Position numbers and translations under genes: made by a program | Notes under the pieces: model-generated | Databases searched by the model: none | The model's input: the letters and a program-made list of their open reading frames with translations, nothing else | What the model was told of the DNA's origin: nothing | Source of the DNA: a virus | Strand: one strand, 5' to 3' | Virus record (IMG/VR): IMGVR_UViG_3300006108_000010 | Location: 1-64,000 of that record | DNA length: 64,000 nucleotides | Shown: in pieces, positions 13,500-57,815 of the stretch | Layout: each line of letters opens with the position of its first letter | How positions within the stretch are numbered: position 1 is the stretch's first letter

Positions 13500-13862
13500 G
13501 TGAAAGATAACGACGAAAAAAAATTACAGATGATTTATGAAAAGATGAATCATTACTCTGGTGCTGATATTAAAGAAGATGATATTGGTGAAGAAGAAAA
13601 AAGCGGAGAAGTACCAGATGAGAAGCCACATGTTATCTATATTGATATCGGAGATGATATCTGGGAGATTGATCTGTTATCGGATGACCATAAAAAAGAT
13701 CCGAATAACCTTTTACACAAGATCAAGAAATTCTTAATCTATTATAAGAATGATCATGATATAAATCACAATTTTTTACATGGTTTACTCAACAGCGAAA
13801 AACTCCACAAGTATTTGAAGAAATTTAATACTCACCCTAAAGAATTTTTAAATCAGCTATAA
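13500..13862 (+). CDS. Protein with shared N-terminal peptide, acidic (120 aa)
   Basis: The GTG start is supported by a TAAATAT box and by the N-terminus (M)KDNDEKKLQMIYEKM, which fits the peptide shared by several proteins in this window. The rest is acidic, then a beta segment (VIYIDIGDDIWEIDLL) and a basic helical tail. It is a lone rightward gene, convergent with the carboxypeptidase-like gene (10-nt overlap). I infer a virion or internal-head protein. Confidence 0.7.
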   Translation: MKDNDEKKLQMIYEKMNHYSGADIKEDDIGEEEKSGEVPDEKPHVIYIDIGDDIWEIDLLSDDHKKDPNNLLHKIKKFLIYYKNDHDINHNFLHGLLNSEKLHKYLKKFNTHPKEFLNQL

Positions 13863-14437
13863 GCAGAAATAATTTTATTTGCAATGGTTTCTAAATAATC
13901 TGCTCTTTCTTTCTTATCCCAATCCATAGGGGTTTCTAGTGTGCAATAAGGAATACCTCTTTTTCTCATTGCTCTTTCTAATGTTCCCTTTGTTGGCAAG
14001 TGACCGAAAGAAATAACACCATCCTCTGTTTTATCTCCACATGCACTCTTTGCTTTCGGTGCATGAATTGATGCCAATATATCCTTTAGCTTTTCTTTAA
14101 ACTCTGGATTACAATAAGCATAGATTCCACTTCCATCACAATCTTCATGTAGTGCTATTACGACTCTTGGTTTTAAAGATAAAATTTTATTTAAAATTCT
14201 ATCTTCTTTTTCTACCGAATCCTTTTGGTCAAAGTGTCTATTTAAATCAATTGAACCATCTCTTCTTTTTCCTGTCTTATTGACATGGGATATAACGTAG
14301 ATTCCTTCTTTACCTTTAAATCTATCGGCAGCAATAGTTCCAGCTACTTCATCTCCATGAATTCCTCCGACTACAACAATCGGAGAAGATACCTTCTCGT
14401 ATAAAAATTCTAATATTAGGCTATCCCTATCTTTCAT
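13853..14437 (-). CDS. M14-like zinc carboxypeptidase/deacylase with shared N-terminal peptide (194 aa)
   Basis: After an N-terminal peptide MKDRDSLILEFLYEKV, a catalytic domain shows GGIHGDE (residues 24-30, zinc HxxE), DLNRHFD (the substrate-binding N-R pair) and ALHEDCDGSG (third zinc-ligand region), then a late TLETPMD that could supply the catalytic glutamate. This matches the succinylglutamate desuccinylase/aspartoacylase branch of the M14 family, shortened. The substrate may be a peptide or an acylated amino acid. A TAAGTAT box lies 3 nt from the ATG. The N-terminal peptide suggests it may be packaged in the virion. Confidence 0.82.
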   Translation of the reverse strand: MKDRDSLILEFLYEKVSSPIVVVGGIHGDEVAGTIAADRFKGKEGIYVISHVNKTGKRRDGSIDLNRHFDQKDSVEKEDRILNKILSLKPRVVIALHEDCDGSGIYAYCNPEFKEKLKDILASIHAPKAKSACGDKTEDGVISFGHLPTKGTLERAMRKRGIPYCTLETPMDWDKKERADYLETIANKIISAYS

Positions 14438-14440
14438 CTT

Positions 14441-14447
14441 ATACTTA
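14441..14447 (-). promoter_or_regulatory. TAAGTAT box
   Basis: The box lies 3 nt before the ATG of the M14-like gene, the closest spacing seen. A promoter here would give a leaderless transcript. Confidence 0.55.
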
Positions 14448-14451
14448 CACT

Positions 14452-14525
14452 TGGAGGGCGTAGAGGGAATCGAACCCTCTCATTAAGTTTGGAAGACTAA
14501 CAGGCTACCGTTACATCATACGCCC
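14452..14525 (-). tRNA. tRNA-Gly(TCC)
   Basis: The acceptor GGGCGTA/TACGCCC has U73, typical for glycine, and encoded CCA. The anticodon loop is CTTCCAA in a stem with one T:T mismatch, and the T-loop is TTCGATT. Confidence 0.9.
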
Positions 14526-14533
14526 AAAAAAAC

Positions 14534-14608
14534 TGGCATCGCCAAGGGGAATCGAACCCCTATTCCACGGATGAAAACCGTGTATCCTAACCGTTAGATG
14601 ATGGCGAC
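14534..14608 (-). tRNA. tRNA-Glu(TTC)
   Basis: The anticodon stem CACGG/CCGTG holds loop TTTTCAT. The acceptor GTCGCCA/TGGCGAT begins with G:U, with G73 and encoded CCA. The T-loop is TTCGATT. Confidence 0.92.
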
Positions 14609-14622
14609 TCTATTTATATATC

Positions 14623-14739
14623 TTAGAGATGTTTTCGCACAAAGTCAACAATAAAGATGATGATACTTAAAATAAAATATCCCAAAAAAAATATCAAAAC
14701 AGATACTCCTGTCATAGCGGCTTCTAGTGGATCAAGCAC
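14623..14739 (-). CDS. Small membrane protein, GTG start (38 aa)
   Basis: A GTG at 14739, 4 nt after a TAAGTAT box, opens MLDPLEAAMTGVSVLIFFLG and continues as a strongly hydrophobic helix (FILSIIIFIVDF), ending RKHL. The box and reading frame together support a real gene between tRNA-Glu and tRNA-Met. The function is unknown. Holin-like peptides have this form, but that is speculation. Confidence 0.55.
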   Translation of the reverse strand: MLDPLEAAMTGVSVLIFFLGYFILSIIIFIVDFVRKHL

Positions 14740-14754
14740 ATATATACTTACAAT

Positions 14755-14827
14755 TGGCAGGGGTGGGATTTGAACCCACGATCCTCTGGTTATGAGCCAG
14801 ATGACTTAACCACTTGTCCACCCTGCG
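14755..14827 (-). tRNA. tRNA-Met(CAT)
   Basis: The anticodon stem TCTGG/CCAGA holds loop CTCATAA and the T-loop is TTCAAAT. The first acceptor position is a C:C mismatch, which recalls the unpaired 1:72 of initiator tRNAs. However, the anticodon stem lacks three G:C pairs, so initiator, elongator or Ile2 cannot be distinguished. CCA is not encoded after A73. Confidence 0.85.
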
Positions 14828-14833
14828 ATAAAT

Positions 14834-14908
14834 TGGCACGTTGGGTGGGTAACGCTCCCACATAAGGCAGTTTTGGAGACTGCTGCATTTCTTGTCTGCC
14901 ACCAACGT
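14834..14908 (-). tRNA. tRNA-Trp(CCA), variant T-loop
   Basis: The acceptor ACGTTGG/CCAACGT is perfect, with G73 and encoded CCA. The anticodon stem GCAGT/ACTGC holds loop CTCCAAA. The T-arm is GTGGG AGCGTTA CCCAC, with the same unusual AGCGTTA loop as tRNA-Cys and tRNA-Lys. Confidence 0.88.
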
Positions 14909-14911
14909 ATA

Positions 14912-14986
14912 TGGAGCCTCTGGTCGGGATTAAACCGACGACCCTTCGCTTACAAGGCGAAAGCTCTATCACTGAGCTACAGAGGC
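14912..14986 (-). tRNA. tRNA-Thr(TGT)
   Basis: The acceptor GCCTCTG/CAGAGGC is perfect, with U73 and encoded CCA. The anticodon stem TTCGC/GCGAA holds loop CTTGTAA and the T-loop is TTTAATC. Confidence 0.92.
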
Positions 14987-15028
14987 AATAAATTTATATT
15001 AATAACTTACCACACCAACCCTTTGATG

Positions 15029-15205
15029 TCAATCAAAAGATAAATCTTTTTTCTCAATTTTTTCAATACTACCAGTTCTTCCTGATTGAACTACATAATA
15101 AAATTCTTCCTCACGAAGAATCTCTATAATCTGACCTCTTTCTAATGAAGGGTGATTTTCCGTTATTACAACAGCCTGACGATAGTTATGTCTTTTGTTA
15201 TGCAT
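15029..15205 (-). CDS. Small beta-rich protein (58 aa)
   Basis: The frame from the ATG at 15205 encodes MHNKRHNYRQAVVITENHPS, then RGQIIEILREEEFYYVV and GRTGSIEKIEKKDL. The pattern resembles a small SH3-like barrel. It lies between tRNA-Thr and the Lys/Cys-rich small genes. The function is unknown. Confidence 0.6.
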   Translation of the reverse strand: MHNKRHNYRQAVVITENHPSLERGQIIEILREEEFYYVVQSGRTGSIEKIEKKDLSFD

Positions 15206-15211
15206 CAAATA

Positions 15212-15357
15212 TTACTTCTTTTTCTTTTTGTTTTTAACACAGTTATTTACTATTTTACCAAAAAGTTTTTAGTTCCTTTTTTGTGATAACCTTTCCAACA
15301 GTTGACTTCAGTAATAACACTTCTTATTATTTTATAAAGATTTATTTCTTTTTCCAT
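15212..15357 (-). pseudogene. Frameshifted CWKGY-type small phage gene
   Basis: The ATG at 15357 starts MEKEINLYKIIRSVITEVNC, followed by WKGYHKKGTKNF, then a TAG at 15250. In another frame the sequence continues FGKIVNNCVKNKKKKK to a TAA at 15212. Restoring one T in a five-T run joins them into a CWKGY...VNNCVK protein of a type I recall from cyanophages and other phages. It is either a sequencing slip or a genuine truncation. The start overlaps the end of the next gene. Confidence 0.55.
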
Positions 15358-15599
15358 CTGATTGCTTTATGACCTTTCTTTTTTCTTTTACTTGCTGAAC
15401 ACATTGCTTTTGTAGGGCGACAAGCTGGATAACCTTTTCTTTTTTCGCCTTTTTGTCTACCGCAAACCTTACCAGTTTTACAATCTATCCAACCTTTTTG
15501 ACCACCTGCACCTCTGCGTGAAAACCACCCGTGAAGTCCTTCACGTTTTTCCTTTTCGAAACCTTCTAATAAAGTTGCTACAAGTGAATCAAATTTCAT
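15342..15599 (-). CDS. Cys/Lys-rich phage protein with MKFD N-terminus (85 aa)
   Basis: MKFDSLVATLLEGFEKE is an N-terminal peptide shared with the next gene upstream and with the 391-aa protein at 55 kb. Its LLE-G matches a T4-type prohead-protease site. The remainder (GGQKGWIDCKTGKVCGRQKG, then YPACRPTKAMC) is a Cys-containing basic domain of a type I recall from marine phages. The start overlaps the upstream TGA. The role is inferred to be head-associated. Confidence 0.75.
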   Translation of the reverse strand: MKFDSLVATLLEGFEKEKREGLHGWFSRRGAGGQKGWIDCKTGKVCGRQKGEKRKGYPACRPTKAMCSASKRKKKGHKAIRWKKK

Positions 15600-15763
15600 T
15601 TCTTTTTAGATTTACCCCAATTTTTAGCACCCTTTTTACGACATTTAACCAATGCACCGGATGCGTAGGCGGAGGGCCACACCTTATATCTGCTCTTTAC
15701 TTTATAGTAACAAGCATCTTTTTTTTCTTCTAATATAGAAGCAACTAAAGCATCAAATTTCAT
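15596..15763 (-). CDS. Small KVWPSAYASG-type protein with MKFD N-terminus (55 aa)
   Basis: From the ATG at 15763 the frame encodes MKFDALVASILEEKKDACYY, then KVKSRYKVWPSAYASGALVK and CRKKGAKNWGKSKKK. This closely fits a small conserved domain I recall (DUF5872-like) from cyanophages and large DNA viruses. Its first ten residues parallel those of the downstream gene. ATGA overlap with that gene indicates coupling. Confidence 0.8.
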   Translation of the reverse strand: MKFDALVASILEEKKDACYYKVKSRYKVWPSAYASGALVKCRKKGAKNWGKSKKK

Positions 15764-15764
15764 A

Positions 15765-16169
15765 TTACTGGGCAGGTGTTTGTATAGTACCAGCTTTTCT
15801 TTCTAAGTAAATTAAACGTTGATCTAAATTGTCCATTCTTTTATCTAGACCTGCTTCGGTTTGGTTAATATGTTTTAAATCTTCTGAGAAGATACTTTGA
15901 TTGTTAATTATGGTTTCTAGCTTCTCCTGTGTTACTTCAAATCTTTTTGATGCTTCTTCCGAAGCGTGTTTATCAGATTCTATTTGTCTTTCGACATATA
16001 CTGCAAATTTATCTTGGGTTACATAGTGTTGACCCATCCAAAGAGTTGCATAAGAGAACATTATAAATGCTACCACCATTACTGCTGGTTTAATAAAGAT
16101 TGTATACCATTTACTGCCTGGTGATGGAGAATCTAAATGTGACAAAGGATCGAGAGGATTAAAACTCAT
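15765..16169 (-). CDS. Membrane-anchored coiled-coil protein (134 aa)
   Basis: A Pro/Ser-rich cytoplasmic N-terminus is followed by one transmembrane helix (residues about 27-46, PAVMVVAFIMFSYATLWMG). A long coiled coil (about 60-125) contains heptads such as LDKRMDNLDQRLIYLERK. Spanin or holin-accessory proteins and tail-associated membrane proteins have this architecture. No specific assignment is possible. Confidence 0.7.
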   Translation of the reverse strand: MSFNPLDPLSHLDSPSPGSKWYTIFIKPAVMVVAFIMFSYATLWMGQHYVTQDKFAVYVERQIESDKHASEEASKRFEVTQEKLETIINNQSIFSEDLKHINQTEAGLDKRMDNLDQRLIYLERKAGTIQTPAQ

Positions 16170-16234
16170 AATATTTTACATCTGTATGATTATACTTATA
16201 TAGCTTGAGGTCACTTTTAAACTAAATATTATAA

Positions 16235-16906
16235 ATGATACAAGGCAAAACCCTAGTAATTTCGGACATTCATCTTGGTTCACCCGTCAGTCGCACCGAT
16301 GCAATCTTAAAGGTTTTAACCGAAGAGAAATACGATAAGTTAATCATTAATGGTGATTTATTGGATAATAACTATTTTGAAAGATATAAAAAGAAACATT
16401 GGAAGGTTTTGGAAACTATCAGAAAAATTTCAAAGAAAAAAGAAGTTATCCTAATAAGAGGAAATCACGATAGAAATTCCGAAGCTCTTGCTGGAATATT
16501 GGGTATAGAATTCGTTGAAAAATATGAAATGCAAATTAGTGATAAACGCTTCTTATTCTTGCACTTAGACATATTTGATACCTTTATTGCCAGTTATGGT
16601 TTATTGACAAGTATCGCTGAAAAAATCTATTATTTTTTTCAAAAACTACATAAGCCATTGGCTATATGGTTAAAAAGAAGCAGTAAAACTTTCCTAGAAG
16701 TTAAAGATAAAATCAAGTATAAAGCATTGGAATATATTCACAATACACAATACGATGCAATTTTTGGTGGTCATGTCCATTACGCAGAAGAATATCACTG
16801 CATAAAAACCAACAAAAGCTATTATAATACTGGATCTTTCTGTGACTCTCCATCTCATTATATCATTATAGATAGTGATGGGATGGTTATTTTGAAGGAA
16901 ATTTAA
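16235..16906 (+). CDS. LpxH-like metallophosphoesterase (223 aa)
   Basis: Motifs in order are SDIHLGS (residues 10-16), GDLLDN (about 40-45), GNHDR, then GGHVHYAE and YNTGSFCDSP near the C-terminus. This order and the GSF-x-D ending match UDP-2,3-diacylglucosamine pyrophosphatase LpxH-like enzymes. A phage copy could act on a nucleotide-linked substrate, but lipid A modification is only a guess. A TAAATAT box lies 5 nt before the ATG. It is convergent with the next gene, overlapping by 4 nt. Confidence 0.85.
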   Translation: MIQGKTLVISDIHLGSPVSRTDAILKVLTEEKYDKLIINGDLLDNNYFERYKKKHWKVLETIRKISKKKEVILIRGNHDRNSEALAGILGIEFVEKYEMQISDKRFLFLHLDIFDTFIASYGLLTSIAEKIYYFFQKLHKPLAIWLKRSSKTFLEVKDKIKYKALEYIHNTQYDAIFGGHVHYAEEYHCIKTNKSYYNTGSFCDSPSHYIIIDSDGMVILKEI

Positions 16907-18009: not shown

Positions 18010-18046
18010 ATCACCATATAATAAATGATGATTATAAATATGTCAA

Positions 18047-24594: not shown

Positions 24595-25212
24595 CTATTT
24601 TAAATAATCTAGCGTAGAACCTCTACGAGGCTTGTGTGATTCTTGGATAAGTCCTTGATCTGGATTATATTTTGCACTGCCTCTTCCACCCAAATATCTT
24701 AAAGTTGAATTTGCAGATTCTTGATGCACAGGATTATCAGAAATAGCATTGGCAACTTTCTTTGATTGACGATGACCATGACGCTCAACTGCACCATCTA
24801 GACTCTTTTTCAAATCATTAAGAAATGCTTCCAAATTATCTTTGGTAGGATTGCTAATATAAGCCTGTGCAATTTCCTTTGATGTTCTTGATTCGATATC
24901 GTGTACGATTTCTTCCTTTGGTTCGTGTTTTAAAAGGGATTTAATTTTTGTTAAAAGGTGTTGAACTCCACCCTTGGATGCCATATCAAATCCTTTTTGA
25001 ATTGCAGCTACGGTGGCGGCTCCAAGCATGCCTGGTATATAGAACGATGCCAATGTTACCAACCCTTGTATCTGTGGTGACATATGACCTGTACTTCTAA
25101 TTGCAGAAACAATTTCATTTGCAATGTGAGAAAAATCTTCGTTAATAACGTTTCTTTTAACGCTACTATAAGCTTCTTCTAGGCTAACTTGATCTTTTGA
25201 ATTTGAGAACAT
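24595..25212 (-). CDS. Putative head-associated protein with shared N-terminal peptide (205 aa)
   Basis: I chose the start MFSNSKDQVSLEEAYSSVKR because it gives the shared S-L-E-x-A-Y-x2-V peptide and follows the upstream gene closely. VINE-D at residues about 23-27 fits an I-x-E prohead-protease site. A Gly/Ala-rich helical or membrane-like region (LASFYIPGMLGAATVAAIQKG) and a basic tail follow. It may be cleaved and packaged, by analogy with T4 internal proteins. Confidence 0.65.
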   Translation of the reverse strand: MFSNSKDQVSLEEAYSSVKRNVINEDFSHIANEIVSAIRSTGHMSPQIQGLVTLASFYIPGMLGAATVAAIQKGFDMASKGGVQHLLTKIKSLLKHEPKEEIVHDIESRTSKEIAQAYISNPTKDNLEAFLNDLKKSLDGAVERHGHRQSKKVANAISDNPVHQESANSTLRYLGGRGSAKYNPDQGLIQESHKPRRGSTLDYLK

Positions 25213-25213: not shown

Positions 25214-26185
25214 TTACTTGGATTTTTTAACTGGTTTGGAGGTAATCTTCTTACCGTATTTTTCTGCACCCTTTTTTATACCCTTTACGATTCTTTCCTT
25301 TTTCTCTTTGCCGTAATGATGACCTGTTTTCTTTTCAAGTGCTTTTTCAACAGCCCAAGGGTTTATATTCTTTTTTCCGGAAACGGCTTTCTTCTTCGCT
25401 TCCTTGATGATGTCAAGAGCAGCGGATAAAAGATCGAAATCTTCTTCCTCAACTGAAATTTCTTCTTTACCTTCTAGCTTTTCATTATCACCATGTTCGC
25501 CTTCCTCCGATTTTTTATATTTGGAAGACTCCTCTTCTTCCTTATCCTTAACGTCTTCAACCTTTTCCTTTTCGGTTTTTTCAACGTGATCTTCCTCTTC
25601 GTCTGCCTCTACAACAGGAAGCTTGTATGAACCTGTTTTCTGTGTACCAGAATGAGGATCATTATCAACACGATTGAATGGGTGTTTATGATCTGTGTTT
25701 CTTGGATCAATGTCCTGAGATTCACTTAAAAGCTTTGCATAAACATCTTCCAATGAAGTTGATTCTTTGTAATTGTTATATGCTACGTCACCATGAAGAG
25801 CACCATGCTCGTGCTTTCTTTCTGCATAACCTTCTGCTCCTCTTTGCATTCTCTGAGCAGCGATATCCTTTTCGACTTCTCTATTTGTTAATCCACGAAG
25901 CTTTTCTTCTGGTCTTGATGGTTTGAACTTAAGTAAGAAATCATCAGCGTTCTCTTCGTCATTTATAAATCCTTCTGAATCAACGTGTGCACTAACACCC
26001 ATCTTTCTAAGCTCCATAACTTTCTGACCACTCTGGGTTTTATAGCCAACGATTTTAAATCCGTGCTCTTCTAATTTATGGATTGTGGCTTGCTGATCGT
26101 GAGGCAAACTACTTGTATCATATGCCTCGTTAACTAAAACTTTATTATAAGCTTCTTCTAAAATGAGATAGTCTTTCTTGTTCAT
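25214..26185 (-). CDS. Acidic, low-complexity protein with shared N-terminal peptide (323 aa)
   Basis: MNKKDYLILEEAYNKVLVNEA fits the shared peptide. A second copy-like stretch STSLEDVYAKLL sits near residue 140. Residues about 195-250 are extremely Glu/Lys-rich, like T4 internal or scaffold proteins. The C-terminus (NPWAVEKALEKKTGHHYGKE) is basic. A TAAGTAA box lies 5 nt before the ATG. It is a good candidate for a scaffold or internal head protein. Confidence 0.7.
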   Translation of the reverse strand: MNKKDYLILEEAYNKVLVNEAYDTSSLPHDQQATIHKLEEHGFKIVGYKTQSGQKVMELRKMGVSAHVDSEGFINDEENADDFLLKFKPSRPEEKLRGLTNREVEKDIAAQRMQRGAEGYAERKHEHGALHGDVAYNNYKESTSLEDVYAKLLSESQDIDPRNTDHKHPFNRVDNDPHSGTQKTGSYKLPVVEADEEEDHVEKTEKEKVEDVKDKEEEESSKYKKSEEGEHGDNEKLEGKEEISVEEEDFDLLSAALDIIKEAKKKAVSGKKNINPWAVEKALEKKTGHHYGKEKKERIVKGIKKGAEKYGKKITSKPVKKSK

Positions 26186-26190: not shown

Positions 26191-26197
26191 TTACTTA
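26191..26197 (-). promoter_or_regulatory. TAAGTAA box
   Basis: The box is 5 nt before the ATG of the acidic 323-aa protein, within GTGTAAGTAAT. Confidence 0.5.
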
Positions 26198-26513: not shown

Positions 26514-27647
26514 TTAGTGGATGATTAAATACGTACCACGAACGTCTCTGCGTGAGGCGGAGAGGTCGGATTCGCCAGGCAATACGATCACGTTATACTG
26601 CCCGTTCTGACCTTCAGGGGTATGTTTCAATTCATCAATTGTTAAAACACTCTTTGGATCAATCTTATATCTCTGTGCAATGAGTTGCTTTACTGCATCT
26701 GGATTGGTATAAACCCACTTCTTGTTTTTTAATTCAATGTATTTGAATTTTGAAATCGGATAAAGGGAAGGCTCCTTTGTTGGGTCTTTAATATTAACGA
26801 TATAGGAAACCTTATCTTTCTGAGGATCAATTAATTTCTCCTGTTCTTTTCTTGCCCCGTAAGAGAAGTTAAAGATTACGTTATGTGGAGGATTTGGAAT
26901 TGATTTAATTAATGCAACTTCCTTGGTGTAGATATAGTGATCTGCATCAGGCGTTGCATTTACAATTTTCATTACAATATCAAAGAACTTAGGGGAGAGT
27001 AAGTCACCGGAATCATTCCAGCGAACCTGAACTTTCTTGCCTCTGTTTTTAATAGCAGCTAATTTAATTTCTGCTACCATTTGGTTTTCATAACCCTCTG
27101 CATCATTGAAGAGATAGTTAAGGGTTTTATTCTGGAACATGGAAACCTCTGGATACATGACATATGATCCGTGTTTTGCGTAACATACTAATTGACAAGC
27201 ACCAGCGGATGGACAGGTTGTAATGATTTTAAATTCTCCTGTGCTTTCGTCAACAACCATACCCTTTAAGGCAGGAAGAGTTGTGTTAAAGAAAACTGTG
27301 GTGTCTGTACCACTCTTTTGCATCTTCTCGTTTTGGCGTAAAAGCTCCTTTGGACGGGTCATTAAGATTTTCTTAAATTCATCAAGATCAACTTTTTCGC
27401 CATCTGGAGTTTGGATCATTACCTTCTTTGCAATGGCGGAATGGATATGAGGCATGTGGAAATAATCCTTATCCTTACCTTTCTTTTCGCTTGCCTTGAG
27501 TTTTGATTTTTCGTTAACCCTGTTAATATAGGCAACTAGTTCTTCTGGGGCAATTGCGTCTGCCTTTGCTCCCAATGTGTCGAATGCTTCCAAAATAGAA
27601 ACTTCTTCGTACAAACTCTCAAGTATTAATGCGTCTTTATCTCTCAT
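26514..27647 (-). CDS. gp88-like protein with shared N-terminal peptide (377 aa)
   Basis: MRDKDALILESLYEEVSILE-A gives the shared peptide with an I-x-E cleavage-like site. From about residue 140, TTCPSAGACQLVCYAKHG and a downstream VRWNDSGDLLSPKFFD resemble the phage gp88 protein family. There, clustered cysteines (CxxxxxCxxxC) precede a GD-containing domain of unknown biochemistry. The body is full length. A TAAATAT box is 6 nt upstream. Confidence 0.75.
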   Translation of the reverse strand: MRDKDALILESLYEEVSILEAFDTLGAKADAIAPEELVAYINRVNEKSKLKASEKKGKDKDYFHMPHIHSAIAKKVMIQTPDGEKVDLDEFKKILMTRPKELLRQNEKMQKSGTDTTVFFNTTLPALKGMVVDESTGEFKIITTCPSAGACQLVCYAKHGSYVMYPEVSMFQNKTLNYLFNDAEGYENQMVAEIKLAAIKNRGKKVQVRWNDSGDLLSPKFFDIVMKIVNATPDADHYIYTKEVALIKSIPNPPHNVIFNFSYGARKEQEKLIDPQKDKVSYIVNIKDPTKEPSLYPISKFKYIELKNKKWVYTNPDAVKQLIAQRYKIDPKSVLTIDELKHTPEGQNGQYNVIVLPGESDLSASRRDVRGTYLIIH

Positions 27648-27653: not shown

Positions 27654-27660
27654 ATATTTA
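27654..27660 (-). promoter_or_regulatory. TAAATAT box
   Basis: The box is 6 nt before the ATG of the gp88-like protein. Confidence 0.5.
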
Positions 27661-27680: not shown

Positions 27681-28130
27681 CTAAATTTGCGCCGTAAGCT
27701 TTCCATCGATAATGGATACAAGCTTTGCATTATAAATGGGTTGCTCATTTGCTCGGTTTACAAATGAGTTATATTTGTAGGGATTATAGGTAATACTAAT
27801 TGGTAAAACACGAGGTTCTTCGTTGGATAAAAACCCAATAACCCCTGCATGAACATTTTTTCTTTTCTGTTCACGAACCTTTTCCATTCCCCCTTGACGA
27901 ACCTTTAAAATGCAATCCTTAAGCAAGAGATTTCTTTCATGACCAATAACCTTATTTGTTGCCACATCCATAATGGAGAATATAGGATAGCCAAGTTTAT
28001 CTGACAAGTTTAGGTTCTTATACACCCAAACTTTTCCAGAAAACCCAATATGACCAGTTCTTGCTTCTAATCCCTCCTCGCAAATAAGACTATAGGCTTC
28101 TTGAAGTAAAAGTGTATCACGATCTCGCAT
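27681..28130 (-). CDS. Protein with shared N-terminal peptide (149 aa)
   Basis: I chose the ATG at 28130 because it yields MRDRDTLLLQEAYSLICEEG, the shared peptide followed by an I-x-E site, and a TAATTAT box lies 6 nt upstream. The rest looks like a beta-rich globular domain (GKVWVYKNLNLSDKLGYPIF) with no recognised motif. Confidence 0.7.
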   Translation of the reverse strand: MRDRDTLLLQEAYSLICEEGLEARTGHIGFSGKVWVYKNLNLSDKLGYPIFSIMDVATNKVIGHERNLLLKDCILKVRQGGMEKVREQKRKNVHAGVIGFLSNEEPRVLPISITYNPYKYNSFVNRANEQPIYNAKLVSIIDGKLTAQI

Positions 28131-39843: not shown

Positions 39844-40938
39844 CTAGCCTACATTCTTCTTGACAAACTTACCAAGGGCATCTCTGACATTGTGGAAGAG
39901 ATGACCATTAGGCTTGACACCATACTGGTTGTTGTTCTCACAACCGCATTGACCACCACAGCAACCATCGTTGCCATCGTTGCCTACCTGATCCTCGTTG
40001 GTGAGTGTAGTCTTGCCAGCACATCCTCCTCCGTAGCATCCAGAGTATTTGTCATCGTAGCAGGAGTTACAGAGCATCTCGGAGTTCTCATCCCAATTAT
40101 CAAGGATGGTTTGGCAGTTGGCACAATACTCGTTCTCATCCTCGTCCTCGTAATCTCCTCCATCAGAAGAGTAGAGATCGTTGTCGAATCCATTCTCTCC
40201 ACGATTGAGCTTGATCCTCCAATCCTCGGTGTATTCACCGATCACTTCATACTTACAGCAACGACCCTTGGTGTTGTTGTAGTCAGCAGGGATTGACACC
40301 ACATCCTTGGGATTGATCTTGACAATCATGGTGTGACCTCCGTTGTGATCTGCAAAGTGAGGCAGATAGTTAATCGAGCAGAAGTGCAATCCACTTGAGC
40401 AAGTGCGATCCTTGTCCTCGTCCACCTTGTAGCGAGGCATCTCACACACCTTGCCAATGGAGTTGTCAAATGTCCCACTATGAATGTCCTTATAGTCTGC
40501 ACGAACATTCTTGAAGGCGAGGAAGTGACCATCCTCTGTGATTGGGAGTTCACCCACATCCAGAAAATCGTAGAGTTCATTGACTGCACGATAGGAGGGA
40601 TTCTCCATCAGGTTATAGAGGAAGTTCAGCAGAGGCTTGAAGGGCAAGTCCTGTTGCATGAAACTAATCACCCTCTTGGTGAGAGTATTGTGGATAGGCT
40701 CACCCTTGTAGACGATGATGCCATCTACAATCTGGACATCAGAGTTGAGAACAAAATCCTTGACCTTACGAGAAATGTCTACATGGTCGAGGAAGGCGTT
40801 CCAATCCTGTGCCTTGACTGCCTCAAGTGCCTTGAAGTAGTTGGGGTGCGTGTTGTCAATCGTGTAGATTGATCCGTTGATACAGGCAGTGATCTTTCCC
40901 TGTCCTGTAATGGTGACTGCATTGTTGGTGTTGTTCAT
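39844..40938 (-). CDS. rIIB: rIIB-like protein (364 aa)
   Basis: The central region (DGHFLAFKNVRADYKDIHSG, CSSGLHFCSINYLPHF, VSIPADYNNTKGRCCKYEVI) matches T4 rIIB family proteins, and it directly follows rIIA as in T4. The C-terminus adds Cys-rich, possibly zinc-binding segments (CANCQTILDNW...CNSCYDD; GCYGGGCAG; CCGGQCGC) that T4 rIIB lacks. The start at 40938 follows a TTGACA/TAGTAT promoter by 7 nt. The longer frame reads through the promoter. Confidence 0.87.
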   Translation of the reverse strand: MNNTNNAVTITGQGKITACINGSIYTIDNTHPNYFKALEAVKAQDWNAFLDHVDISRKVKDFVLNSDVQIVDGIIVYKGEPIHNTLTKRVISFMQQDLPFKPLLNFLYNLMENPSYRAVNELYDFLDVGELPITEDGHFLAFKNVRADYKDIHSGTFDNSIGKVCEMPRYKVDEDKDRTCSSGLHFCSINYLPHFADHNGGHTMIVKINPKDVVSIPADYNNTKGRCCKYEVIGEYTEDWRIKLNRGENGFDNDLYSSDGGDYEDEDENEYCANCQTILDNWDENSEMLCNSCYDDKYSGCYGGGCAGKTTLTNEDQVGNDGNDGCCGGQCGCENNNQYGVKPNGHLFHNVRDALGKFVKKNVG

Positions 40939-40976: not shown

Positions 40977-42956
40977 CTATTTTTCCAGTTTCTTTGCAAG
41001 GAGCAGATACATCTTCTGATCCTCACCCCACTCTCCTAGCAGAGAGGAGAGGAGGAAGTCAAGAACTTTATCTTCCATCTTGAAAACTTTATTGCTGTCC
41101 CTGTTATCCATGTAGCCAAGGATTTCGGTGATCTTGCTATACTTCTGCTTGAAACTTTGGAGCTTGACAAGCATCTCCTTGATAGGATTGTCGTTGGCGA
41201 GATCAGAAAACTCTTGACGATTCACGATGTCATGCAACCTGTGAGTCGAGTAGGATTGGAGGATGTCCACTTCACTCATGTCAACCCAAGATAGGTCGTG
41301 ATTCTTGTTGAACTCCTCAACAAAATCCTTGACACCCCTTGCCTTGAGCTTCTTTGCCTCCTTGTCATTGGCAAGCACAATATCATTGAGCGAGATATTA
41401 AAGGCTTGACAATAGGAGCGAAGGCGATCCTTGTCGCTGATGATGCGAAGATGATTGAGCTTGACATTCAACTCCCAATTCTTCCCCTTCAGGATATAAT
41501 ACTTGGGAAGATTTGTTTCAGTCGGTTCGATTGTCCTTGACTCCCAAGAGACATTGTAGGGGTGACCAATCTGATAGCAGGTGATGTCCTCTTTAGCCTT
41601 GACTACGATAGTGCCACCAGAGAGCTTCCTCTTGGCAGTAGGGGAAGGCAGGGAGGAGGCAGGGAGGAAGTTATCAGGGAATCCTGCATCCATCATGTCA
41701 TCCCTCTGCTCTTGAGTGAAGAGGATGGCATAAGTGTCATTAGTCTCACGAACAAGAGTCTTGACACGAGCGATAGGATTCTTGCATCCATCATCGTAAT
41801 ACCATGTGAACTTCTTGTCGAAGGAGAAGGATGAACTGGTGCTGACCTGCTTCCTGTAAGAGTAGCGAGTGAAGGACTGCACAGATGTCTTGAGAATATC
41901 CTTGACAACCTTGTAAGGCTCGGTGATGTCCTTACCTTTGAACTGGACATTCTTGAGTTCAAAATTGCTTGACCCGTAGTAGGAGAACCTCTCGGTGTAG
42001 GAGAGCAAAGCATGGATGGAGTCAAGGATGTTATCCTTATTTTCTATCTGCTCTTTTGCCTTGGTCTTGATCTCTGTCAAGACTTTTTCCAGCTTGTCAT
42101 TGATTGCCTTGATAGTGGCATCATCATAGGACAGGTGTTCACGAGAGGGAGCAAAGTCGAGTTCTCCCATAGCGAACTTCAGAACCACACCTTTGCGAAC
42201 GATGTTGTTATACTTGTCGGCAACCTTGTAGTGGTCGATAGGATAGGTGACTCCTCCCATGATGGCAAATGCCTCCCATTGATTAGAGGAATCCATGAAC
42301 ATCCAATCCTCACCAGAGAAGGTAGGCTTCTCCTCTGACCAATGGCACACCCCACCAGAGGTAGTTGGCTTGACATCGAAGAATCGAAATGCCTTCTGGA
42401 CTGCCTTGATGAAGTCACAGAAATCTTTCTCCTTGACAGGGATCTGGACTGCCACACCATTTTCTTCCTTGGTGTTCTCCTGACTCATCAGGGCAATAGT
42501 CGGGTTGCCATCTTGAGCGAAGTAGGCATTGTAGATTCTCTTGACACCATCATGGATGGAGGTGACAGAGAAGTTGTCCGTATAACAGAAGGGAGACTTG
42601 CTACCTAGACCAAGGCAACCGATCTGCTCATTGGTATTGGTCTTGGTGCTTTCAAAGTAAGTGGAGTAGATGTCGTAGATATTCTGGTGCGAGATACCTG
42701 TTCCGAAATCCTGAATGGTGATCCAAGGCTCAAGAGAGTTGGGAAGGTGAATGTGGAAAGGTTGACCTACCTTGCCAGAGGCAACCATAGAATCATTGGC
42801 GTTGCAACCAAGCTCTCTGACGATGGCAAGAGGCTTGTCAGAGTAAAGGTCAGAGAGGATCTGGAAGGCTTTACGAGAGGACTTCATCTTGAAGGACGAA
42901 GTGCCCGTGATGTTTCCGATCTGTTCGATTTGATTTGGTGTGTCTAGTAGTTTCAT
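40977..42956 (-). CDS. rIIA: rIIA-like GHKL ATPase (659 aa)
   Basis: The N-terminal domain has the GHKL/HSP90-type ATP-binding boxes: RELGCNANDSM (N box, about residues 42-52), DFGTGIS (G1) and LGLGSKSPF (G2). A long C-terminal region follows. T4 rIIA, with rIIB, affects lysis timing and exclusion by lambda Rex. Here the pair is intact and adjacent. The ATG at 42956 follows a TTGAAT/TATGGT promoter by 9 nt. It ends in TAG. Confidence 0.9.
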   Translation of the reverse strand: MKLLDTPNQIEQIGNITGTSSFKMKSSRKAFQILSDLYSDKPLAIVRELGCNANDSMVASGKVGQPFHIHLPNSLEPWITIQDFGTGISHQNIYDIYSTYFESTKTNTNEQIGCLGLGSKSPFCYTDNFSVTSIHDGVKRIYNAYFAQDGNPTIALMSQENTKEENGVAVQIPVKEKDFCDFIKAVQKAFRFFDVKPTTSGGVCHWSEEKPTFSGEDWMFMDSSNQWEAFAIMGGVTYPIDHYKVADKYNNIVRKGVVLKFAMGELDFAPSREHLSYDDATIKAINDKLEKVLTEIKTKAKEQIENKDNILDSIHALLSYTERFSYYGSSNFELKNVQFKGKDITEPYKVVKDILKTSVQSFTRYSYRKQVSTSSSFSFDKKFTWYYDDGCKNPIARVKTLVRETNDTYAILFTQEQRDDMMDAGFPDNFLPASSLPSPTAKRKLSGGTIVVKAKEDITCYQIGHPYNVSWESRTIEPTETNLPKYYILKGKNWELNVKLNHLRIISDKDRLRSYCQAFNISLNDIVLANDKEAKKLKARGVKDFVEEFNKNHDLSWVDMSEVDILQSYSTHRLHDIVNRQEFSDLANDNPIKEMLVKLQSFKQKYSKITEILGYMDNRDSNKVFKMEDKVLDFLLSSLLGEWGEDQKMYLLLAKKLEK

Positions 42957-42965
42957 AGTTGAGCT

Positions 42966-42993
42966 ACCATACAATCTTTCCCCAAACATTCAA
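42966..42993 (-). promoter_or_regulatory. rIIA promoter, near-leaderless
   Basis: TTGAAT, 16-bp spacer, TATGGT. The -10 box ends 9 nt before the ATG, giving a predicted leader of about 2-3 nt. Confidence 0.68.
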
Positions 42994-50232: not shown

Positions 50233-50409
50233 ATGGAAGACAAATACGGAAAGACAGAACATCATTACCTTGTGAAAGGTGAATGGGTTCCTGCTTCTAA
50301 AACAGAATTCATAGACATATCAGAAGACCTATTCGGTTACGATGTCTATGAATTTAAATACAATGGGAAAGTTTACACTTCCCATGCAGTGATGCGCTAC
50401 TCTTCTTAG
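50233..50409 (+). CDS. Small hypothetical protein (58 aa)
   Basis: The ATG at 50233 gives MEDKYGKTEHHYLVKGEWVP, a polar beta-rich protein ending HAVMRYSS. It converges on the next leftward gene by 4 nt. No family is recognised. Confidence 0.6.
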   Translation: MEDKYGKTEHHYLVKGEWVPASKTEFIDISEDLFGYDVYEFKYNGKVYTSHAVMRYSS

Positions 50410-50729
50410 AGTTCTTCGTCGTAATCTTTAGCAGCATCGGCATCAGCCATTGGACTTAAAAAGTCACTGGAATTAGCCTCTTCCTCTGCTTCGCCACCTA
50501 AACCGAACTCTGCTAAGATTGCATCAATAGCATCTTCGGAAGCAGGAAGATTATGTTGTCTGAAAATATCTGCGAGAGCTTCCTTCTTGTCATGATCACC
50601 GGAAACACTATATGAGGTTGGTGCTTCGTCAGGAGTCTCATCGGTTTCGTTTGGAGTCGCTCCAAAATTCTCTCTAAGAAGAATTTTGCTGTAGATTGAT
50701 TCTAAACTTTTTTGGTCTTTATTTGCCAT
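50406..50729 (-). CDS. Acidic protein with shared N-terminal peptide (107 aa)
   Basis: MANKDQKSLESIYSKILLRE fits the shared peptide, with an L-R-E site following. The body is acidic and helical, ending DADAAKDYDEEL. A TAAATAT box is 7 nt before the ATG. It is probably an internal or scaffold-type head protein. Confidence 0.7.
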   Translation of the reverse strand: MANKDQKSLESIYSKILLRENFGATPNETDETPDEAPTSYSVSGDHDKKEALADIFRQHNLPASEDAIDAILAEFGLGGEAEEEANSSDFLSPMADADAAKDYDEEL

Positions 50730-50736: not shown

Positions 50737-50743
50737 ATATTTA
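50737..50743 (-). promoter_or_regulatory. TAAATAT box
   Basis: The box is 7 nt before the ATG of the acidic 107-aa protein. Confidence 0.5.
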
Positions 50744-53552: not shown

Positions 53553-53554
53553 TT

Positions 53555-53953
53555 CTAAACATATTTTGTATTATCCCACATGGTAAGAGATGGATCGTTA
53601 TTACCCATCTTGTATTTTGCAATCAATGATTCACTTATCTTTCCCGTAATTGGATCTTCGTAAGATTGCATAAAGTCTTCGATCTTTTCAATTATCATCT
53701 TCTTGATTTTATCATTAGTGGTATGATCCCAAGGTTTACCTTTATGCCCAAAAAATATTGTATTGTATTTGCCTTCGTTCTTTTCCCTCAAGAACTGATG
53801 TTGCTTAACGTGAATAGTCAACCATCTATTTCTAATATCTGGATTGTTTGGGAAATCATCCTCGTCAATATAGAACTCCCAATACAAAATGAGAGCAGTA
53901 ATATCTTTAACAGAGGGAAACTTATATGCTATTGATCTTTGTTGTAGTTTCAT
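53555..53953 (-). CDS. Hypothetical protein (132 aa)
   Basis: I chose MKLQQRSIAYKFPSVKDITA at 53953 because it overlaps the previous TGA. HVKQHQFLREKNEGKYNTIF and a helical end follow. No motif is recognised. Homology to phage proteins is plausible but unproven. Confidence 0.65.
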   Translation of the reverse strand: MKLQQRSIAYKFPSVKDITALILYWEFYIDEDDFPNNPDIRNRWLTIHVKQHQFLREKNEGKYNTIFFGHKGKPWDHTTNDKIKKMIIEKIEDFMQSYEDPITGKISESLIAKYKMGNNDPSLTMWDNTKYV

Positions 53954-54159
53954 ACAATCACAACCCCTTCCCAATCAGTATTGACAAATCTCTTGACGGT
54001 CTTCTGTTTCACTTTAGTCTCGACAATCTTATACGGATTGTCGGTAGTATAGTGCCAAGAATATTCCTTAACATGATCCATAGCTTCTTTATAGGTTTTA
54101 TATGGTGAGCACATTGAATCATACCATGCTGCTCCTGTCCATCTTTTAACTGTGTACAT
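53950..54159 (-). CDS. Hypothetical protein (69 aa)
   Basis: MYTVKRWTGAAWYDSMCSPY with a helical/strand tail ending WEGVVIV forms a small globular protein. It is coupled to the 53555 gene. The function is unknown. Confidence 0.62.
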   Translation of the reverse strand: MYTVKRWTGAAWYDSMCSPYKTYKEAMDHVKEYSWHYTTDNPYKIVETKVKQKTVKRFVNTDWEGVVIV

Positions 54160-54190
54160 GAGAATATGTTCTCAGATTATTGTTGAAGTG

Positions 54191-54835
54191 TCAATCAAGA
54201 ATTGGCTTGGTGACAAACTTTTTAAACTTGGGGCGACGATCATCAGGATTTCTATTGACATCCTTGATGGGACACGCACAGTGCTTTTGCAGAACGCACT
54301 CTTTGCATCCGTAATCCAAATAGATATCTGGTCGATGGCAAGCGAATGAGGTATGCAACTTGCATCCTTCTTTATCCTTAGAAAGCATAACTGGCTCTCT
54401 CACACGATTGAAATCAATCTTGGGAATAGTCTTACGAATCTCATTGTACCTCTCCTCTTTCTCTTCCGGTGTTTCGATATGAATCACCCTAGGTGCTTTC
54501 TCCTTTTCAACCTTGGGAACCAAGACTTCTTTACAATCCTTGCACAAGGATTCGGTTAGAATTCTTTTAGCATCGTTATCGAATGCCTTCATCGCATGCT
54601 TCATGGCGATACCCTTGAGGCTTACGAATGCATTGGTGCAGTGAGAGCAATAGATTCTCGTATGAGGAAACTTCTTGTGCTCTTTATAATAATCCATCCA
54701 CTTGGAAAGATTATTAAGTTGGTTTGCTGGAAACTTCACAAGCTTTTCTTTCTTGGCTTTCTGAAGCTTGGTCTCCTTCTTCGGCTTACGAGGCTTCTGA
54801 GCTTTGACCTTTTTGACTTTCTTTTTCCTTGGCAT
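54191..54835 (-). CDS. Basic zinc-binding protein (214 aa)
   Basis: The N-terminus is a lysine-rich tail (MPRKKKVKKVKAQKPRKPKK). It is followed by CSHC...CKDCKEVL and, later, CKLHTSFACHRP, CKECVLQKHC and CP clusters consistent with two zinc sites. Such proteins are often nucleic-acid binding. I do not recognise the family. Confidence 0.7.
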   Translation of the reverse strand: MPRKKKVKKVKAQKPRKPKKETKLQKAKKEKLVKFPANQLNNLSKWMDYYKEHKKFPHTRIYCSHCTNAFVSLKGIAMKHAMKAFDNDAKRILTESLCKDCKEVLVPKVEKEKAPRVIHIETPEEKEERYNEIRKTIPKIDFNRVREPVMLSKDKEGCKLHTSFACHRPDIYLDYGCKECVLQKHCACPIKDVNRNPDDRRPKFKKFVTKPILD

Positions 54836-54972
54836 TATTTTGATAGGGCTTTTGCGATCCTCTCGTAATGATTTCTGGATTTTTCCAGATCGGCAATACG
54901 ATCCAAAAGGATTGCAATATATTCTTTTAACTCATCGACACTCATTGTGTCAATATCTTTTTCTTGGCTCAT
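54835..54972 (-). CDS. Small helical protein (45 aa)
   Basis: MSQEKDIDTMSVDELKEYIA then RIADLEKSRNHYERIAK is a coiled-coil-like peptide. Its stop overlaps the next start by one base (TAATG). The function is unknown. Confidence 0.58.
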   Translation of the reverse strand: MSQEKDIDTMSVDELKEYIAILLDRIADLEKSRNHYERIAKALSK

Positions 54973-55021
54973 GGTATTTTTTTAATATATACCAAAATCA
55001 AAAATAATGCAAGCTTATTTT

Positions 55022-56197
55022 TTAGGCGGATCTTTTTTGATGGAGTGCTTCTGGAACTTCGCCCTCTTTAGAAGTTTCCTTTTTCAAGCCATATGGAGCA
55101 ACAGTAAGTTTATCTAAATCGATAGTAAAGTTACCGAATGTTTGTTCTCCGGTTTTCTCATCATAGTATTTTGCCTTGATGACATCAAAAATGATTTGAT
55201 CTCCGATATTTTTTGAGAATTCGTCTATTCTAATACCACTTACAATTTGCCCATCCTGAAGTTTGAATCTCTTTCTGGCTAATTGTTCTTTGGAAACTGG
55301 CTTACCATACTGAGGTACACCACCTTCCCAAAGCGTAGGAGGCTGTCTTAATCCCTTTCTTACGTCTGGGAGTGGGTCGGGCCATACATTTGCAACTTCG
55401 GTTTGCTTGATAAAAGGAAGATTACCTTTAATATAATTTCCTTCTTTGTCCTTGCCTTTCTTGGTGTAGATGATCCAGTTGGTTGCACCAGTTTTTGGAT
55501 TGAATGATGATGCAAGATCTAATGCAAAGTAATGCTGACCTGGTGCGGATTGCATTCTCGTGTAAGATCCTTGTTTAATAAGCTCTTCAAAGTTTTCAAA
55601 ATCCTGTCTAACCAAGGTATCAAGATTCGCTTCGATTTGATTCCATCTTCTTGGATCGAAAGCAATCTTTTTCTTTTCAGCATCTTTGGCAAAAAGAGGA
55701 ACCTTGGCTTTAATCTTATCACGGACTTGATTGATTACATCACTAACTGGCTTGTAGTCATCATAGTTTAATGGAATATCAGTCTTCTCGTTTTTAAGAT
55801 TTGCTAATTTTGAGAGAATGGTAACTAATGATCTTGAGATATTAAAGACTTCCTGTTCATCGTTTGTCTTATCAAGTTGATTGTTTAAAACAATAATTTG
55901 ACTTCTAAATTGATCTAATCTTTTGTTTTCGTACTCGCCTGATTGGGTTGCATGCTTTTTGCTGACAGCGGCAGATCTATTTTCCGTTGATCCTAATCCA
56001 CCAACCTGATACTTCTTAGCACCAGATGGAAGTAAATCAGATACAGGAAGCGGATGATCAAATCTTTCTTTGTCTACTGTTTCGTTTTTATATTTAATAC
56101 CAAGTTTAAGTTTCTCTTCGGGAGTGAGTTCTCTTACTCTAGTATCTGCCTCTGTAAAAAGAGAAGAAACAATTTTATCAAAATTCATGCTTATCAT
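55022..56197 (-). CDS. Virion-type protein with MNFD N-terminus (391 aa)
   Basis: From the second methionine, MNFDKIVSSLFTEADTRVRE parallels the MKFDSLVATLLEG and MKFDALVASILEE starts at 15 kb, and TE-A fits a protease site. The body is long, soluble and beta/alpha mixed (QHYFALDLASSFNPKTGATN). A TAAATAT box lies 7 nt before the first ATG. It is probably a head protein or packaged cargo. Confidence 0.7.
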   Translation of the reverse strand: MISMNFDKIVSSLFTEADTRVRELTPEEKLKLGIKYKNETVDKERFDHPLPVSDLLPSGAKKYQVGGLGSTENRSAAVSKKHATQSGEYENKRLDQFRSQIIVLNNQLDKTNDEQEVFNISRSLVTILSKLANLKNEKTDIPLNYDDYKPVSDVINQVRDKIKAKVPLFAKDAEKKKIAFDPRRWNQIEANLDTLVRQDFENFEELIKQGSYTRMQSAPGQHYFALDLASSFNPKTGATNWIIYTKKGKDKEGNYIKGNLPFIKQTEVANVWPDPLPDVRKGLRQPPTLWEGGVPQYGKPVSKEQLARKRFKLQDGQIVSGIRIDEFSKNIGDQIIFDVIKAKYYDEKTGEQTFGNFTIDLDKLTVAPYGLKKETSKEGEVPEALHQKRSA

Positions 56198-56204
56198 ATA
56201 TTCT

Positions 56205-56211
56205 ATATTTA
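56205..56211 (-). promoter_or_regulatory. TAAATAT box
   Basis: The box is 7 nt before the first ATG of the 391-aa gene. Confidence 0.5.
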
Positions 56212-56237
56212 CTCTTAAAAAGAGTATTTTATTAGAA

Positions 56238-56450
56238 TTATACTTTAATCATTTGCTGCACGGTAAACTGAACAGATGCATGAGCAGCCGTTTCGACGTT
56301 TACCTTGTGAGCAATCGTAATCCAACCTCTTTGATTATAGAGGTCGATTTGCTTCTGAATCCCTTCATGAAGAATTTTCTTTCTTTGACCAAAAGAAAGA
56401 TTTGGTTTAGTGAATGGGATCTTTACGATTTCGTTTATTATTCTTGCCAT
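56238..56450 (-). CDS. Hypothetical basic protein (70 aa)
   Basis: MARIINEIVKIPFTKPNLSF followed by a helical end (HKVNVETAAHASVQFTVQQM). It lies between two genes with possible virion roles. The function is unknown. Confidence 0.62.
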   Translation of the reverse strand: MARIINEIVKIPFTKPNLSFGQRKKILHEGIQKQIDLYNQRGWITIAHKVNVETAAHASVQFTVQQMIKV

Positions 56451-56480
56451 GTTAATATATTATCAGATTGCTTGATTATG

Positions 56481-57815
56481 TCAAGCTTTTATTTTTTTTC
56501 TCTGTATTTTTGGTTTACCTGTTGTCGGCTTAGCCGTTGCCATTCTTTTACTTGCGCCAGTTTTTAATTTCGGTGTTGCCGTTGGCGTTGGTGTAGTGTC
56601 AATGGGAATATTATTTTCTTGTTTCCATGCATTATTAATTGCGATTGGATTTACTGCTGGTTTATTATTTTCATCAACCCATTGTTTATTTTTGAAAGTA
56701 TAGACTCTACCATTTTTTAATGTAACTTTATCATTATCAATGGGTTCCGTTTTTTTCTTAACTTGTTGTAAGGTTGATAATCCGTGCATTTTTCTCCACG
56801 TATTAAGAAAAGTTCCTTGATTAATGGCTGGTTTTTTATTTTGATCAACCCATTTTGCACCATTGAAAGTATAAACTGAACCCTTTTGAGTTTTAATCTT
56901 ATCTCCCTTTTGTGGTTTACCAGTTTGTAATTTTGGGGATTTCTCTATAGGATAAGCCCATTTAATGCTTGTTGGATTGTTAATGTCAAACAACGCCGTA
57001 TCACGCGTGTCGGTGTAATTTTTGTCATTTTCTCCATTTAAAAGCGTTTTATTTAAAATATGAACATCTCCCGTTGTCGATGTTACCAATGCGCTTACTT
57101 TATTAGGCTTCTCTTCTTCGGTTTTAAGTTGCGCAAAACCAAATGTACCTGTATTATTTAATCTAACAACGTATTTCTCGTTTTTATCTAATACATTTAT
57201 TATGGTTCCCTTAATATTTGGATTGACTGTTTTGTTTATAACAGCAACAACTGGTTTACCATTTATCGGAATGATTATTTCCTTTGTCTTCTTATCTTCG
57301 TCTCCAATTATTTTAGGCTGTTTTATTTCTTTTTTAAGAAAGGCATCGACAACATCTCCGGTAGCACCTGCTAAGTTGCCAAGAGGATTTTTTGATGTTG
57401 CGGTTGATTTAAAAGCATTTACTCCGGTTTTAACAACATTTGCAACATTTTTTGCGCCTTGATACGCATTTCTAACATCTTGCAAATTAATTTCATTAAT
57501 AACAGATTCCTCTAATTCTCTGTTAAATCTCATCTGTTTACTATTTTCGTAATCACTAATAGTAATTTTAATTGTATCTAATAATTTTCTAAGACTACTA
57601 TTATCTTCTTCGTCTTCTGCATCAGGAGCAGATTCTTGTCCTGCCTTTTCTGGTACTTCTATCTCTGCTTGGGTTAATGGTTCTGTTCCCATTATAGCAG
57701 TTGATGTAGCGGCAGCATTAGAACCATAATAAGGAAATGGTCTACCTGCTTCGTCTTCTTTAATTAGCTTAATACTTTCATACAGAGCTTCTAAACTTTT
57801 AGAATCTTTATCCAT
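56481..57815 (-). CDS. Repeat-containing protein with shared N-terminal peptide (444 aa)
   Basis: MDKDSKSLEALYESIKLIKE-DE matches the shared peptide. The C-terminal third contains two imperfect repeats, one from KIKTQKGSVYTFNGAKWVDQ and one from KVTLKNGRVYTFKNKQWVDE, each ending in a helix. The Pro/Thr-rich tail is basic. TAAGTAT lies 8 nt before the ATG. It is probably a head-internal or virion structural protein. Confidence 0.72.
   Translation of the reverse strand: MDKDSKSLEALYESIKLIKEDEAGRPFPYYGSNAAATSTAIMGTEPLTQAEIEVPEKAGQESAPDAEDEEDNSSLRKLLDTIKITISDYENSKQMRFNRELEESVINEINLQDVRNAYQGAKNVANVVKTGVNAFKSTATSKNPLGNLAGATGDVVDAFLKKEIKQPKIIGDEDKKTKEIIIPINGKPVVAVINKTVNPNIKGTIINVLDKNEKYVVRLNNTGTFGFAQLKTEEEKPNKVSALVTSTTGDVHILNKTLLNGENDKNYTDTRDTALFDINNPTSIKWAYPIEKSPKLQTGKPQKGDKIKTQKGSVYTFNGAKWVDQNKKPAINQGTFLNTWRKMHGLSTLQQVKKKTEPIDNDKVTLKNGRVYTFKNKQWVDENNKPAVNPIAINNAWKQENNIPIDTTPTPTATPKLKTGASKRMATAKPTTGKPKIQRKKIKA

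Follow-up and report, generated by a model that had tools for sequence, protein, structure and literature searches.

In bacteriophage T4, a short N-terminal segment, the capsid-targeting sequence (CTS), stands on otherwise unrelated proteins, ends in [LI]-x-E and is served by a cognate S77 (gp21-type) protease, whose motif is L/I-X-E (PMC9026906). On the internal proteins IPI, IPII and IPIII the CTS takes the forms MKTYQEFIAE|A and MKTFKEFTSTTTPVSTITE|A, the bar marking the end of the propeptide. In phage P1, the first 30 residues of DarB suffice to send this large anti-restriction protein into the head, and the Dar proteins are reported to share no N-terminal consensus (PMC9024508). Polyvalent proteins bring ArdC, SNF2, ADP-ribosyltransferase (ART) and other domains into the host with phage or plasmid DNA, and Alt of T4, the classic example of an enzyme packaged in the head and injected, is itself an ADP-ribosyltransferase (PMC5512222). 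The processed head and inner-body proteins of phiKZ and SPN3US have propeptides with several protease sites, a built-in redundancy in the case of phiKZ (PMC9026906). The first 64 kb (the window) of the 121.6-kb viral record IMGVR_UViG_3300006108_000010 (G000) encode eight proteins that begin with variants of one peptide, D-x3-L-E-x-[LA]-Y-x2-[VI], followed by unrelated bodies. As judged from sequence, this shared N-terminus, here called the class A tag, is very probably a lineage-specific capsid-targeting propeptide that would direct proteins to the head and then be removed, and delivery into the host is fairly probable for at least some of the tagged proteins.

The T4 CTS is similar in its position on unrelated bodies, its [LI]-x-E end and its cognate protease, and in both T4 and G000 the genes lie near tRNA clusters. 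The class A tag differs in having another consensus, which a T4 profile misses, in usually offering two candidate sites, and in standing on up to eight or nine proteins per phage, large enzymes included (a 986-aa helicase and a 542-aa ArdC-type protein). The putative N-terminal packaging signal and an SNF2-type helicase among the cargo recall the Dar system, but here there is a clear common consensus. The cargo bodies are of the same domain types as those of polyvalent proteins; the difference is that they mostly stand singly, one to a tagged protein, and not as several domains in one chain, although one 323-aa protein resembles a fusion of two cargoes. The phiKZ cleavage motif is S/A-x-E, and we know of no short common address peptide in phiKZ or SPN3US.

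The head genes of G000 are of the T4 type. They encode a gp23-type capsid protein, a gp22-type scaffold, an S77 prohead protease of the gp21 type (106.4-107.1 kb of the record; E = 8e-32 in Pfam and 8e-63 in PHROG) and a gp20-type portal, so that protease, core and shell genes of a CTS system are all present. Among the capsid proteins of the clade, most conserve [IL]-x-E|[AG] near residue 62, and the clade protease therefore probably shares the [IL]-x-E preference. The capsid protein of G000 is only ~34% identical to those of the nearest cultured phages (tblastn), which leaves no isolate with usable proteomics, and phage records gave no megablast match to 20 kb of the window. G000 may lie within or near the uncultivated Far-T4 phages of lakes (PMC4360716); its close relatives are metagenomic contigs throughout, some of them incomplete.

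The initial annotation had placed the shared N-termini at 13500, 14437, 25212, 26185, 27647, 28130, 50729 and 57815, and all eight were recovered there, the first on the plus strand with a GTG start and the other seven on the minus strand. The motif positions given for them hold for most, but the motif starts one residue earlier in the 57815 protein and two residues later in the 25212 protein. A strict regular expression found exactly these eight at gene starts in the whole record, against 4 internal matches in 36,430 predicted residues; as the internal rate predicts ~0.15 N-terminal matches, eight lie far beyond chance (Poisson probability < 1e-10, our arithmetic).

The bodies are unrelated, as had been proposed. 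Three belong to Pfam families, namely an AstE/AspA (M14-type) zinc carboxypeptidase-like protein of 194 aa (13853-14437; PF24827, 3e-8; MKDRDSLILE|FLYEKV...), a GP88-family protein of 377 aa (26514-27647; PF17338, 6e-32; MRDKDALILE|SLYEEVSILE|AFD) and a Phage_L5_gp82-family protein of 149 aa (27681-28130; PF25735, 6e-27; MRDRDTLLLQE|AYSLICEE). The others are acidic, repetitive or without family: acidic proteins of 323 aa (25214-26185; MNKKDYLILEE|AYNKVLVNE|A) and 107 aa (50406-50729; MANKDQKSLESIYSKILLRE|NFG), a repeat protein of 444 aa (56481-57815; MDKDSKSLEALYESIKLIKE|DEA), a family-less protein of 205 aa (24595-25212; MFSNSKDQVSLEE|AYSSVKRNVINE|D) and the plus-strand protein of 120 aa (13500-13862; MKDNDEKKLQMIYEKMNHYSGADIKE|DD). 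By Pfam, the bodies are mostly single domains. In the related phage G002, the 205-aa protein has an orthologue that is 56% identical with the same tag, and the 120-aa protein one at 136150-136512 with the same tag and GTG start. That the eight are diverged paralogues of a single ancestral gene is scarcely conceivable: the acidic proteins could be remotely related, but the bodies fall into unrelated families and have untagged homologues in other phages. From gene to gene, the tag-coding sequences share 62% identity at most, which indicates that the peptide itself is conserved, without recent DNA duplication.

A six-frame search of related records with profiles made from the tag N-termini gave 46 further matches, representing 43 distinct N-termini, in eight related T4-like phages from metagenomes: G001 (8), G002 (8), G004 (6), G009 (9), G010 (6), G011 (4), G015 (2) and G020 (3, all duplicates of G001 tags). 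All 46 coincide with the start codon of an open frame or are no more than two residues away from it. A segment of 10-20 N-terminal residues is common to unrelated bodies. A single partial match in G019 was left out of the count, and the profile had no match in T4, KVP40, S-PM2, HTVC008M or Cr30. As a positive control, a T4-type CTS profile found ipI, ipII and ipIII of T4 at their starts. No earlier description of the tag in aquatic T4-like phages was found in a literature search, which did not cover subscription journals. A tagged family of 425-459 aa recurs in three phages (L034:3966-5306, L122:1382-2761 and L127:12192-13469) and has no convincing Pfam or PHROG match.

Site statistics were taken over 50 distinct N-termini with the core pattern, from G000 and its relatives. 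The tag is an amphipathic stretch with an [ILVMF]-x-E site at its core. Counted from the tyrosine, Asp at Y-8 is almost invariant and Leu is nearly always found at Y-4; most tags have either Glu at Y-3, with Leu, Ile or another residue before the tyrosine, or Glu at Y-2 with Ala before it, and this coupling of Ala to the position of Glu is highly significant (p = 5e-8). The core [ILVMF]-x-E, which either form commonly yields, is present in 42 of the 50, at residue 10 or 11, where the IPII and IPIII propeptides of T4 end (MKTYQEFIAE|A). A second such site follows 3-15 residues past the tyrosine in 37 tags, against 20.2 +/- 3.2 for shuffled residues (0 of 2000 shuffles). Core or downstream, at least one site of the gp21 type occurs in 49 of the 50. 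Among the eight G000 proteins, the downstream I/L/V-x-E that had been proposed is present in seven and missing from the carboxypeptidase, and most tags have an [IL]-x-E inside the motif as well. Only the core site is found in the carboxypeptidase and the L5_gp82 protein of G002, and only the downstream site in the 50729, 57815 and 13500 proteins.

Structure prediction was consulted for two of the bodies. For the L5_gp82-type protein, an AlphaFold model from an alignment of 19 L5_gp82 homologues has residues 4-18 as a helix at low confidence, a loop to residue 32 and a body of mostly high confidence. This model fits an appended tag helix without proving it, and Foldseek returned no significant match for it in the PDB. 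The carboxypeptidase body had no match among solved structures, and its single-sequence AlphaFold model, of low confidence, was used only to note the tag helix.

The strongest evidence for a cleaved targeting propeptide is a change of tag on a conserved body. In G000 and G001, GP88 starts with a class A tag, MRDKDALILESLYEEVSILE|AFD or MRSKDQILLEGLYEGVRLGE|AFD, whereas in G005/G008 (L008:9968-11125) the same body starts with a class B tag, MTKKFNKFFDSIISSFRNSRLLSE|EFD. The G000 and L008 proteins are 58% identical overall and E20 is conserved; before this glutamate only M1 and K4 are shared with G005/G008, and homology extends from the glutamate onward. The switch of tag thus falls exactly at the x-E site. 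Class B, with the consensus MTxxFDxFVxxILE or near variants, also marks a run of genes with [IL]-x-E ends downstream of GP88 in G005/G008 (L008:9968-14817, IMGVR_UViG_3300042463_001224), among them an ART-PolyVal ADP-ribosyltransferase and a DUF6321 protein. The G005/G008 records likewise encode S77.

The L5_gp82 body occurs in three states: with a class A tag, with a class C N-terminus, or untagged. Class C, MNRYLLKEINKMKTRMGLITE and variants (MxxLLKEIxxIKxRMGLIxE), is found on homologues in other contigs (L153, L155, L193, L201, L215, L217, L219 and L220). Class C records with S77 are G022, G023 and G030; when G022 and G023 were scanned for a cohort of this class, each gave only two matches, and with one or two per record class C is not established as a cohort mark. 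The untagged homologues, in Bacillus phage vB_BpsS-36, mycobacteriophage DarthPhader and many contigs, start at or near the body (MKVFVYFNLH...). No S77 was found in the named records with untagged homologues, a weak negative given that this search had no positive control and covered mostly short fragments; the identical S77 family search did detect the protease in the tag-swapped records. One and the same body can bear different tags in different lineages, with the join exactly on the predicted cleavage site; the tag behaves as a module of the vehicle rather than of the body.

These junctions also bear on whether the tag might be a docking peptide for something other than the head, such as the tail tube, a replication or late-transcription complex, or a membrane. 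An amphipathic helix could bind anything, and a helicase and acidic proteins are among the tagged set. We nevertheless regard this as quite improbable, given that x-E sites are enriched, that body and tag join on such a site, that the tag-swapped phages also have S77 wherever the record is long enough, and that the cargo types are known injected ones. The initial annotation had held that packaging would be refuted if the motif occurred equally on clearly non-virion replication genes; the tagged set contains no recognisable core replication enzyme.

The predicted cargo genes form an island whose content varies. The G000 island runs L5_gp82, GP88, a short untagged open reading frame (ORF), the acidic protein and the 205-aa protein; that of G002 runs L5_gp82, an SNF2-type helicase (986 aa), an ArdC-type antirestriction protein (542 aa; PF08401, phrog_7245), a short ORF, the acidic protein and the 205-aa protein. 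Apart from the short ORFs, all island genes in both phages are tagged, and GP88 and the ArdC/SNF2 pair hold the same place, being flanked by the same tagged neighbours. A 148-aa protein of G002, which has a tag of its own, is homologous to the C-terminal part of the G000 323-aa acidic protein, the matched stretch being 49% identical. Residues 139-156 of the 323-aa protein (25718-25771, minus strand) form a degenerate second tag, YKESTSLEDVYAKLLSE|S; in the alignment, YKESTSLEDVYAKLLSE|SQDID stands opposite HKDHSELESIYSKIINE|SKDID, the tag at the N-terminus of the G002 protein. The 323-aa protein therefore resembles two cargo proteins fused into one with the cleavage site kept, and internal cleavage is predicted to release both.

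Packaging and injection are known for bodies of the ArdC, SNF2 and ADP-ribosyltransferase types, and the body types by themselves would make delivery into the host likely. It could instead be that the tagged proteins enter the head solely as scaffold or core for assembly, without delivery. IPIII of T4 also affects head shape (PMC9026906), and several tagged proteins are acidic and of low complexity, resembling core proteins. Such a purely structural role is unlikely, though it deserves some weight; ArdC, SNF2, ADP-ribosyltransferase and carboxypeptidase bodies are implausible as scaffold, and the cargo varies between close phages while the core genes remain constant.

A TAARTAT box had been reported upstream of most of the cohort. 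Its exact form precedes five of the eight genes and TAARTA six, but the box does not distinguish the cohort, since it is also found at virion genes. Within 32 nt upstream, TAARTA occurs at 6 of the 8 tagged genes, at 13 of the 28 genes of the virion block at 66-121 kb, and in 2.4-2.8% of all 32-nt windows. The box resembles the T4 late promoter TATAAATA and, judged by its consensus, probably marks late genes rather than the cohort. A comparison with the 30-45 kb block (p = 2.8e-4) was set aside because that block is richer in GC, and the genome background was used. Individual boxes are TAAATAT at 13488-13494 (plus strand, 5 nt before the 13500 start) and, on the minus strand, TAAGTAT at 14441-14447 (between tRNA-Gly, 14452-14525, and the 14437 start), TAAGTA at 26192-26197, TAAATAT at 27654-27660, TAAATAT at 50737-50743 and TAAGTAT at 57824-57830, the last four before the 26185, 27647, 50729 and 57815 starts. 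A shared 5' end of this kind could be a transcription or translation-start cassette, a late box with translation-enhancing first codons, of which the peptide is a by-product. The common box 5-15 nt ahead of start codons and the upstream DNA that the 27647 and 28130 genes have in common would suit such a cassette, yet the peptide pattern holds though the tag DNAs are no more than 62% identical, and virion genes have the box without the peptide, so that this explanation is very improbable. As a separate observation, late-type boxes often lie only ~5-15 nt from the start codon (for example at 27647, 50729, 58937 and 45908) and Shine-Dalgarno-like sequences are rare, which suggests that late mRNAs may be nearly leaderless.

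Several observations weigh against the capsid-targeting propeptide. The T4-type CTS profile matches no tag of G000, and homology to the T4 CTS (MKTYQEFIAE) thus rests on a single hybrid N-terminus in P-SSM2. The class A tag was not found in G003 (82 kb, protease 95% identical), G012 (126 kb), G013 or G014, despite close head genes; these records are fragments, or their phages possibly use another tag. The canonical core site is missing from the 13500 protein and its G002 orthologue (LQMIY), one tag has no canonical site at all, and the structural model of the tag is of low confidence. A literature search found no virion proteomics for the clade.

The P-SSM2 hybrid, MKSFKQFLEEAYNKV (MKSFKQFLEEAYNKVINLK), is the single profile match in that phage. 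It belongs to PSSM2_115 (L135:1270-1530), annotated as a hypothetical protein and adjoining a virion structural protein, and looks like a T4 CTS joined to the class A motif. PSSM2_115 occurs in a cultured cyanophage and is therefore open to experiment.

Taken with these reservations, the earlier proposal of head-packaged cargo is supported by the S77 protease and T4-type core genes, the capsid site, the recurrence of the tag at ORF starts, the tag swap at x-E and the cargo types. Under this proposal, the tagged proteins would be made late, together with the virion genes, as the box suggests. The CTS of T4 binds core proteins, and by analogy the short helix D-x3-L-E-x-[LA]-Y-x2-[VI] may draw each protein into the growing prohead core. 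The S77 protease of the phage would then cleave behind the glutamate of [ILV]-x-E, using either the core or the downstream site, or the two together. The released body would remain in the head alongside the DNA and probably be ejected into the host.

A broader idea, whose chances we put at about even, is that S77-protease phages possess a system of address labels that differ by lineage, with at least three kinds (A, MxxKDxxxLExxYxxV; B; and C), that effector genes pass from phage to phage by a swap of label exactly at the protease site, and that some cargo genes have fused, so that two cargoes share one chain cleavable at an internal label. Finding injected phage proteins is difficult, since most are hypothetical and have fast-evolving bodies. 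With a recognisable label, candidates can be picked out from raw sequence, ~50 here, nearly all of unassigned function and in phages for which no cultured relative was found; if the idea is true, the label could serve to list injected effectors in uncultivated phages. The tags also point to a T4 packaging strategy of wider reach and freer exchange than might be expected from the few IP proteins known, and they provide new tags with matching proteases for loading proteins into phage heads.

Two further genes of the window, both on the minus strand, are candidates for additional cargo. The one at 55022-56188 has a class B tag, MNFDKIVSSLFTE|AD, and a late-type box upstream; the other, at 15342-15599, encodes 85 aa with a class B-like N-terminus, MKFDSLVATLLE|G. 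Elsewhere in G000, a conserved gene at 101148-101762 (plus strand, in L003) lies on the strand opposite to the head/tail block. It and its orthologues in L014, L016, L018, L020 and L023 start with MxKFNKFDTLLETAFSHYSNGGFREG or near variants, with a possible LLE site in the N-terminus.

The window contains 18 tRNA/tmRNA genes, comprising a tmRNA gene at 6432-6881 (minus strand; tag peptide VAESLFSQEEDYCLMAA) and 17 tRNA genes. G000 also has a separate rIIA/rIIB region. Between 30000 and 44000, GC content is 0.42-0.50, against ~0.32-0.37 over most of the remainder; this block holds the rIIA-like gene (40977-42989) and the rIIB-like gene (39844-40938) and is without the late-type box.

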